A stretch of DNA of 35,806 bases. It comes from a virus. A model generated the notes under the pieces. The model ran no database searches. It saw only the letters and a list, made by a program, of their open reading frames with translations, and was not told the DNA's origin. The position numbers and the translations under genes are program-made. This document shows positions 6,404 to 7,048 of the stretch, piece by piece. The number at the start of each line of letters is the position of its first letter. Within the stretch, counting starts at the first letter, position 1. The stretch is taken from the IMG/VR virus record IMGVR_UViG_3300027973_000013, positions 1-35,806 of that record, one strand, 5' to 3'.

Positions 6404-6415
6404 ATGCCGAATATA
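6404..6415 (-). promoter_or_regulatory. Candidate -10 box giving a leaderless late transcript
   Basis: On the minus strand TATATT (6415-6410) lies six bases before the TerS ATG and no ribosome-binding site lies between them. A transcript from this box would start at or next to the ATG. No convincing -35 is present (AAATTT at 17-bp spacing), so an activator may be needed. Inference from sequence only. Confidence 0.35.
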
Positions 6416-6437
6416 CCAAAAAATAAATTTAAAAATT

Positions 6438-6464
6438 TGTGGGCAATGTGGGCAATGTGGGCAA
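6438..6464 (+). repeat. Three tandem 9-bp iterons TGTGGGCAA
   Basis: Three perfect contiguous copies start at 6438, 6447 and 6456, flanked on both sides by A/T-rich tracts (aaattt before, aataaaaaatttt after). Nine-base spacing does not keep sites on one face of the helix, so the array may bind a protein cooperatively or in wrapped form. Confidence 0.9.
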
Positions 6465-6604
6465 TAAAAAATTTTGTTTGTGGCCCCTCCGCTTCCGTGG
6501 CCCTTTGGCCCGGGCCCTACCCGGAGGCCTCGCGCCAAAAGCCATTTGGCCATGCAGCCCCAAACCTTACAATCCTTACATTGTAGTACTTTGGTGGGGG
6601 GCAA

Positions 6605-6621
6605 TGTGGGCAGTGTCCACA
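6605..6621. repeat. Inverted iteron pair
   Basis: TGTGGGCAG (6605-6613) is followed directly by the opposite-strand half TGTCCACA (6614-6621), giving an abutting inverted pair. It is the only place on the left side where the two orientations meet. Confidence 0.65.
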
Positions 6622-6637
6622 TGACCCGGTGGCTCGC

Positions 6638-6673
6638 TGGCCATGACCATGTGACCATGTGGCCATGACCATG
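6638..6673 (+). repeat. 14-bp direct repeat TGGCCATGACCATG, two copies
   Basis: Perfect copies lie at 6638-6651 and 6660-6673, 22 bp apart (two helical turns). Five CCATG cores start at 6641, 6647, 6655, 6663 and 6669, so the gaps are symmetric: 6, 8, 8, 6. This looks like a composite protein-binding site distinct from the 9-bp iterons, perhaps for an initiator, a repressor or the small terminase. Confidence 0.75.
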
Positions 6674-6683
6674 CGCGGGCATT

Positions 6684-6710
6684 TGTGGACAATGTGGACA
6701 ATGTGGACAC
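6684..6710 (+). repeat. Three tandem 9-bp iterons TGTGGACAA/C
   Basis: Copies start at 6684, 6693 and 6702; the last ends in C. They differ from the 6438 array only at the sixth base (A for G). The reverse complement TTGTCCACA is a DnaA-box-like sequence. The array lies on the left edge of the AT-rich core. Confidence 0.9.
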
Positions 6711-6824
6711 GTGTTTTCAGTCGCTGCCAAAATGGGGGGGGTGTGAGCATTCGTGGGTTTCATGACATACTGTATAACTACTTAGTATTACATATATTTT
6801 TTTCATTGTTAACATCAAAACACC

Positions 6825-6842
6825 TTGCCCACATTGTCCACA
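6825..6842 (-). repeat. Two abutting iterons, inverted orientation
   Basis: TTGCCCACA (6825-6833) and TTGTCCACA (6834-6842) are the reverse complements of the left-hand iterons. One of each sequence type sits in tandem on the right edge of the AT-rich core. Confidence 0.85.
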
Positions 6843-6879
6843 AATAGCTTTTTTCCTCTCAAAATCGGTCGATTCACGC

Positions 6880-6930
6880 ATGCCCACACTTGTCCACCAC
6901 GTACCCACACAATCGCCCACATTGTCCACA
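6880..6930 (-). repeat. Degenerate right-hand iteron cluster
   Basis: Inverted-orientation copies ATGCCCACA (6880), TTGTCCACC (6890), GTACCCACA (6901), TCGCCCACA (6913) and TTGTCCACA (6922). Only the last is perfect. The pairs at 6880/6890 and 6913/6922 repeat the order seen at 6825-6842: a GCCCACA type followed by a GTCCACA type. Confidence 0.75.
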
Positions 6931-6962
6931 ACGCATTAGGGTTTGTCCCTATAAAATAATCC

Positions 6963-6991
6963 TTGACAAGTGCAAGGCAATGTCTTACATT
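6963..6991 (+). promoter_or_regulatory. Early rightward sigma70-type promoter
   Basis: TTGACA (6963-6968), a 17-bp spacer and TACATT (6986-6991) form a near-consensus promoter about 60 bases before the first early gene. It lies directly after the right-hand iterons, so initiator binding could influence it. It is the best match to a host housekeeping promoter that I found in the window. Confidence 0.65.
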
Positions 6992-7048
6992 ACATCACCG
7001 GCGCGATTTTGCACCGGCATCAAGTCCAATATTCGAAAGGTTTCCATC

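Follow-up and report, generated by a model that had tools for sequence, protein, structure and literature searches.

The window, that is, the whole stretch of DNA analysed here, comprises the 35,806 bases of a virus record. An exact repeat of 121 bases at its two ends makes it probable that this is the whole genome of a phage, closed into a circle. Its source is an uncultured, autonomous, P22-like freshwater phage, and portal and large terminase are encoded by the window itself. Positions 6404-7048 are exactly the 645-base gap that separates the small terminase subunit gene (TerS) on the minus strand, which starts at 6403, from the first early ORF on the plus strand, which starts at 7049. The repeat array in this gap lies, as a sequence-only reading had stated, between two opposite transcription units, the leftward TerS and the rightward early genes. 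The features discussed below are:

1-121 and 35686-35806: exact 121-base terminal repeat of the record.
5957-6403, minus strand: TerS gene, whose start bounds the candidate origin region.
6438-6464 (6438, 6447, 6456), plus strand: iteron triplet 1, TGTGGGCAA three times with a 9-base period; left outer set.
6605-6621 (6605 plus, 6613 minus): opposed iteron pair, TGTGGGCAG (plus) and TGTGGACAC (minus), overlapping by one base.
6684-6710 (6684, 6693, 6702), plus strand: iteron triplet 2, TGTGGACAA twice and TGTGGACAC; left inner set.
About 6767-6812, no strand: AT-rich core (TACTGTATAACTACTTAGTATTACATATATTTTTTTCATTGTTAAC), candidate melting site, with a peak of 82% AT over 50 bases.
6825-6842 (6825, 6834), minus strand: reverse iteron pair; right inner set.
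6880-6930 (6880, 6890, 6913, 6922), minus strand: four more reverse iterons, most with one mismatch; right outer set.
6963-6991, plus strand: candidate sigma-70-like early promoter TTGACA-17-TACATT, read from the sequence, just right of the array.
7049-7222, plus strand: first early ORF, of 57 aa, which bounds the candidate origin region on the right.
9970-12240, minus strand: primase-SF3 helicase of 756 aa with an N-terminal AEP-type primase, a DUF5906 SF3 helicase and a C-terminal winged helix; putative iteron binder.
9973-10308, minus strand: predicted C-terminal winged helix (residues 645-756), with the code residues K725, R727 and D730 in the wing.

The gap had been said to hold at least 13 copies of the 9-mer TGTGGRCAA; we found 8 exact copies (6438-6930) and 14 when one mismatch was allowed. 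Over the whole window there are 9 exact copies against 1.1 expected from shuffles, the ninth at 7056 inside an ORF, and the best of 675 other 645-base segments held no exact and 3 near copies, which leaves no second array in the window. Tandem iterons are spaced by exactly 9 bases. The claim that copies point one way to the left of the core and the opposite way to its right holds for 13 of the 14, which point inward, and fails for the copy at 6613, on the minus strand of the left side. The AT-rich core of relatives is similar (TGTATAGCTATATAGTATTAC), and a promoter placed like TTGACA-17-TACATT is also readable in two of them (L201, L203). Two other elements lie among the left iteron sets: a non-iteron block at 6465-6520 (TAAAAAATTTTGTTTGTGGCCCCTCCGCTTCCGTGGCCC...CCCTACCC), strongly conserved in close relatives, and CCATG short repeats at 6640-6675 (CCATGACCATGTGACCATGTGGCCATGACCATG). 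The GC skew, proposed earlier as a check, reaches its minimum on the circle at 7708, but its range is not beyond the null and the keto-skew minimum lies elsewhere, so we did not count it as evidence on the origin. Comparison of the array with described phages gave zero DNA similarity, and that with plasmids a single weak, chance-like match.

A scan of viral contigs for a tandem 17-mer gave at least 120 stretches, and a search with the primase gene gave 451 relatives. Wherever an array-bearing locus came with 6 kb or more of DNA downstream, it also encoded a primase homologue (50 of 50 loci, some of them found by DNA pattern alone and others by the primase gene). A de novo search for repeated 9-mers in the gap after TerS reached a score of at least 18 in 254 of 290 related loci and in none of 149 control stretches. 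The proposal to look for the same array in related genomes was therefore borne out for the array and not for its sequence, which differs: the array is a fixed feature of the phage group with a variable repeat, including TGTGGACAA, TGTGGGCAA, TGTGGGTCA, TGTGGACCA, TTTGGGTCA, TATGGACAA, TGTAGGCAA, TGTTAGTCA and others. A further 52 loci with primase and region were left unscored, as being without a clear template motif; a few of them (e.g. L445, L449) show no obvious array, and three (L278, L236, L219) show another clear array, with a residue 727 that by eye fits the rule given below. The only primase relative among GTDB genomes (L206) sits in a MAG contig labelled actinobacterium, which probably reflects mis-binning of a phage contig rather than a link to a host, so that a host is not assignable.

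More distant phages with related terminases have other arrays in the same place. MW202483, whose primase is 51% identical, has an array of TTTATGTAAACA, whereas DSL-LC05 relatives, or D-type phages (L204, L287-L350), have arrays of the near-palindrome ACCCANTGGGT. The primase of these D-type phages is a different fusion (Prim-Pol/PriCT_2/DUF3987), and the wing code described below is not visible in them. In MW202483 (L205:29355-29651), and also in L209 and L210, which share the TTTATGTAAACA iterons, an early ORF resembles DnaA domain IV only (Bac_DnaA_C, E 1e-17); we rejected such a protein as a general binder, with matches in only five loci of the locus set. Other repeats were seen in or near the region. 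A palindrome, AAGTTAGTGGCCACTAACTT, occurs in many copies left of the iterons in one sub-clade (L150, L154, L163, L172, L180) and is absent from the window; it possibly serves as operator of another regulator. Single relatives have further tandem repeats (L128, CTTACAAAC; L122/L237, GGCAGGCA; L044, CGTCAGCC).

The primase-helicase matches DUF5906 and, weakly and in its N-terminal half, RepB_primase by HMM. AlphaFold2 modelled the whole protein with a pLDDT of 80.6 and the C-terminal domain alone with 88.2; both models have helices at 687-697 and 706-715 and strands at 719-724 and 733-737, a fold predicted with high confidence to be a winged helix whose wing loop contains residues 725-732. That a wing can recognise DNA is already known from RFX1 and PCG2 (PMC4333399). 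In fold searches the helicase part had its best PDB match in NrS-1 (6k9c, Z 25.0, 370 residues, rmsd 8.2), and also matched the SaPI5 primase-helicase (Z 18.2, 277 residues, rmsd 4.2), with D5/E5 helicases, papillomavirus E1 and AAV Rep as further matches, and the primase part matched the AEP primases S-2L PrimPol and RepB'. The winged-helix domain alone matched assorted generic winged helices (Z 4-6); the P4 origin-binding domain is absent among the matches listed for it, an absence that is no evidence against kinship.

The repeat sequence changes in step with this wing. In a partial Mantel analysis of 87 representatives, with overall TerL, TerS and primase distances regressed out, iteron distance tracked primase residues 716-745 (r 0.425, family-wise 0/1000 permutations, 95% null maximum 0.20), and neither TerS nor TerL had a comparable correlation. 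The top three of 498 variable primase columns were Asp730 (0.57), Arg727 (0.56) and Lys725 (0.50), the fourth reaching 0.265. Arg727 goes with motif position 2 (r 0.93), Lys725 best with position 6 and Asp730 best with position 4. Lys725 with Asp730 pairs with GGA or GGG, Ala725 mostly with AGG or GGG, and Met725 mostly with TAG/AGG-type centres. The window array mixes TGTGGGCAA and TGTGGACAA against a single wing sequence, which suggests that repeat position 6 is loosely read. Other families with at least 28 loci, each on its own loci, had no single column above 0.28; those compared were TerS, TerL, polymerase, nucleotidyltransferase-like, exonuclease, p92, SNF2 helicase and early genes.

Arg727 is present if and only if position 2 is G in 131 of 131 phages; natural relatives of the L257 type have Gly727 instead. 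The counts of Arg727 against G2 were 76/0/0/11 in the training set (n=87) and 18/0/0/26 in the 44 phages out of sample, whose primases are less than 97.5% identical to those of the first set; because this second set was fetched with two non-Arg727 queries, its composition is biased, but the agreement is not. On a FastTree phylogeny of primase residues 1-690, which excludes the wing, Arg727 and G2 each change 18 times, and all 13 phylogenetically independent pairs on supported branches are concordant (p 2.4e-4). For K725 with D/E730 against the GGA centre, 16-18 of 20 pairs are concordant and none opposite, with nine TGTCCACAA motifs taken as the reverse-strand reading of TTGTGGACA and their CCA centre counted as GGA. 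On the evidence of this tree, the wing code appears to have undergone a dozen or more independent switches among free-living phages. Physical linkage was ruled out as the source of the covariation by synonymous distances, which show no peak at 716-745 (0.19, against 0.04-0.23 in the rest of the gene).

Our results suggest that 6404-7048 is the replication origin and that the iterons are bound by the primase-SF3 helicase which the phage itself encodes, a reading to which we give a probability of about 0.86. The idea of a candidate origin came from the sequence-only reading and is now backed by the inverted iterons around an AT-rich core, by arrays similarly placed in hundreds of related phages, and by the covariation with the primase-helicase. 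Array, conservation, sequence switching and residue-base covariation can all be read off the genomes compared; that the protein binds there, melts the core and loads its rings, and that the region acts as an origin, we infer from them, with the winged helix and the place of the three residues in its wing taken from the predicted structure. The same reading had noted no obvious iteron-binding initiator, where we now find a primase-SF3 helicase whose predicted winged helix covaries with the repeats; since the wing residues change in step with the repeat sequence, this protein is likely to read them. The best reading is an origin of the P4/SaPI/PICI kind, whose initiator would bind the iterons, unwind the AT-rich core and prime. 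The C-terminal winged helix would read the 9-mers with its wing tip, Arg727 recognising the G at position 2 (TGT...) and residues 725 and 730 setting the variable centre. Seated on two inverted iteron sets, the primase-helicase would melt the AT-rich core between them and helicase rings would load on both strands; the AEP primase domain would then prime, and the phage family-A DNA polymerase would extend bidirectionally.

The main remaining alternative, which we consider unlikely, is that the same protein, or its C-terminal domain, uses the array mainly as an operator field, repressing the early promoter at 6963-6991 and the terminase operon while replication starts elsewhere. The array does have divergent units on either side and stops some 33 bases short of the early -35 box, and covariation proves recognition only, not origin function. 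Yet the inverted sets flanking an AT-rich core have the layout of PICI origins (PMC6092414), the inferred binder is a replicative helicase-primase, and the window has no second array.

Much less probable is binding by host DnaA, which had been proposed earlier on the strength of TTGTCCACA, a single base off the E. coli DnaA box. Boxes of the DnaA type (TTATCCACA) are not retained in relatives, which carry TTTGGGTCA, TGTAGGCAA and TGTTAGTCA instead, and the distant phages have ACCCANTGGGT and TTTATGTAAACA in the same place, none of them DnaA boxes. Such variation among relatives makes host DnaA an improbable reader, and the motif changes track three wing residues of a phage protein; the primase-helicase, rather than host DnaA, is most likely what reads the repeats, to judge from this covariation.

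TerS of P22-like phages binds DNA, and the array directly adjoins the TerS gene, as would suit a packaging (pac) site of the small terminase. This reading is hardly tenable, because TerS shows no covariation with the motif (0.17 at its best column, 0.09 in its best window), which also led us to reject TerS as iteron binder, and because MW202483 has a TerS 52% identical to that of the window, yet an unrelated repeat. We likewise give very little credence to a small early DNA-binding protein, the other binder suggested earlier: there are small ORFs of unassigned function among the early genes (e.g. 9626-9847), but no early gene is found in more than 72 of 154 relatives carrying primase and terminase, TerS, TerL and primase being the only genes from TerL to primase present throughout, and none that is adequately sampled covaries comparably (e252 reaches 0.55 on 20 loci only, where primase residue 725 reaches 0.78).

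If the primase-helicase reads the repeats as proposed, genome data alone have sufficed to identify the origin and the initiator of uncultured phages that form a large and abundant group, and recognition of an origin by an SF3 primase-helicase would have a testable residue-to-base code. To our knowledge, such a code is undescribed for this initiator family, and a search of the open-licence literature found no description of a residue-level wing code in an SF3 primase-helicase. One possible explanation of the switching, which we offer tentatively, is that these phages fall into many groups of differing replication specificity, comparable to the incompatibility groups of plasmids, in which iteron and three wing residues switch together, repeatedly and rapidly, from competition in co-infection or from origin-directed attack, such as the cutting of PLE origins by ICP1 Odn. 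In that case the wing code would allow the iteron to be predicted from the initiator, and vice versa, for all these phages. Why origins switch specificity would become a directly testable question.

Several known systems resemble this one in part. The iterons of lambda/P22-type origins lie inside the initiator gene (O/18), unlike the intergenic array of the window. The prim-pol of the deep-sea vent phage NrS-1 is like the window's protein in being the best PDB match of its helicase part. In SCCmec, the D5/SF3-type helicase Cch2 binds iterons specifically through its C-terminal domain alone (PMC7581432), but has only three iterons, has no fused primase and belongs to a mobile element that is not a phage. 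In PLE of Vibrio cholerae, the DNA-binding domain of RepA and the origin iterons covary as a module, and cognate pairs are needed for replication (PMC8263062). Covariation of origin and initiator domain was thus already known (PMC8263062), and what appears to be new, from the residue-base comparison, is the residue-level SF3 wing code. RepA differs in belonging to the RepA_N family, without helicase or primase, and in swapping whole domains, where the wing code involves three residues.

In P4, ori1 and crr are separate, unlike the one array of the window. The alpha protein of P4 primes, unwinds and binds origin repeats via a winged helix domain (PMC4234260), and the window, where a single primase-helicase would bind the iterons through its predicted winged helix, would resemble alpha with type I iterons. 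The P4 primase is, however, Toprim-type (PMC4234260), whereas that of the window is AEP-like by fold and by a weak RepB_primase match, so that this is not a P4-type replicon as defined.

PICI origins have two inverted iteron sets around an AT-rich core (PMC6092414), and the C-terminal domain of PICI/SaPI Rep recognises iterons (PMC7581432). As in the pri-rep-ori modules of these islands (SaPI5 PriRep1; E. coli PICIs), where primase and initiator helicase are fused or paired, we found a primase with an SF3 initiator helicase (DUF5906 and weak RepB_primase by HMM; SF3, SaPI5 and RepB' folds). Their origin lies directly 3' of rep, whereas in the window about 3 kb of downstream DNA, with early genes, would separate the origin from the primase gene (stop at 9970); and they are satellites needing helper particles, unlike an autonomous phage with its own portal and large terminase. 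On both counts the window is not a PICI replicon as defined. Its replicon would nevertheless work like both the PICI/SaPI and the P4 types, and a kind of origin hitherto regarded as special to satellite islands would now be found in ordinary phages, which bears on the source of satellite replicons.
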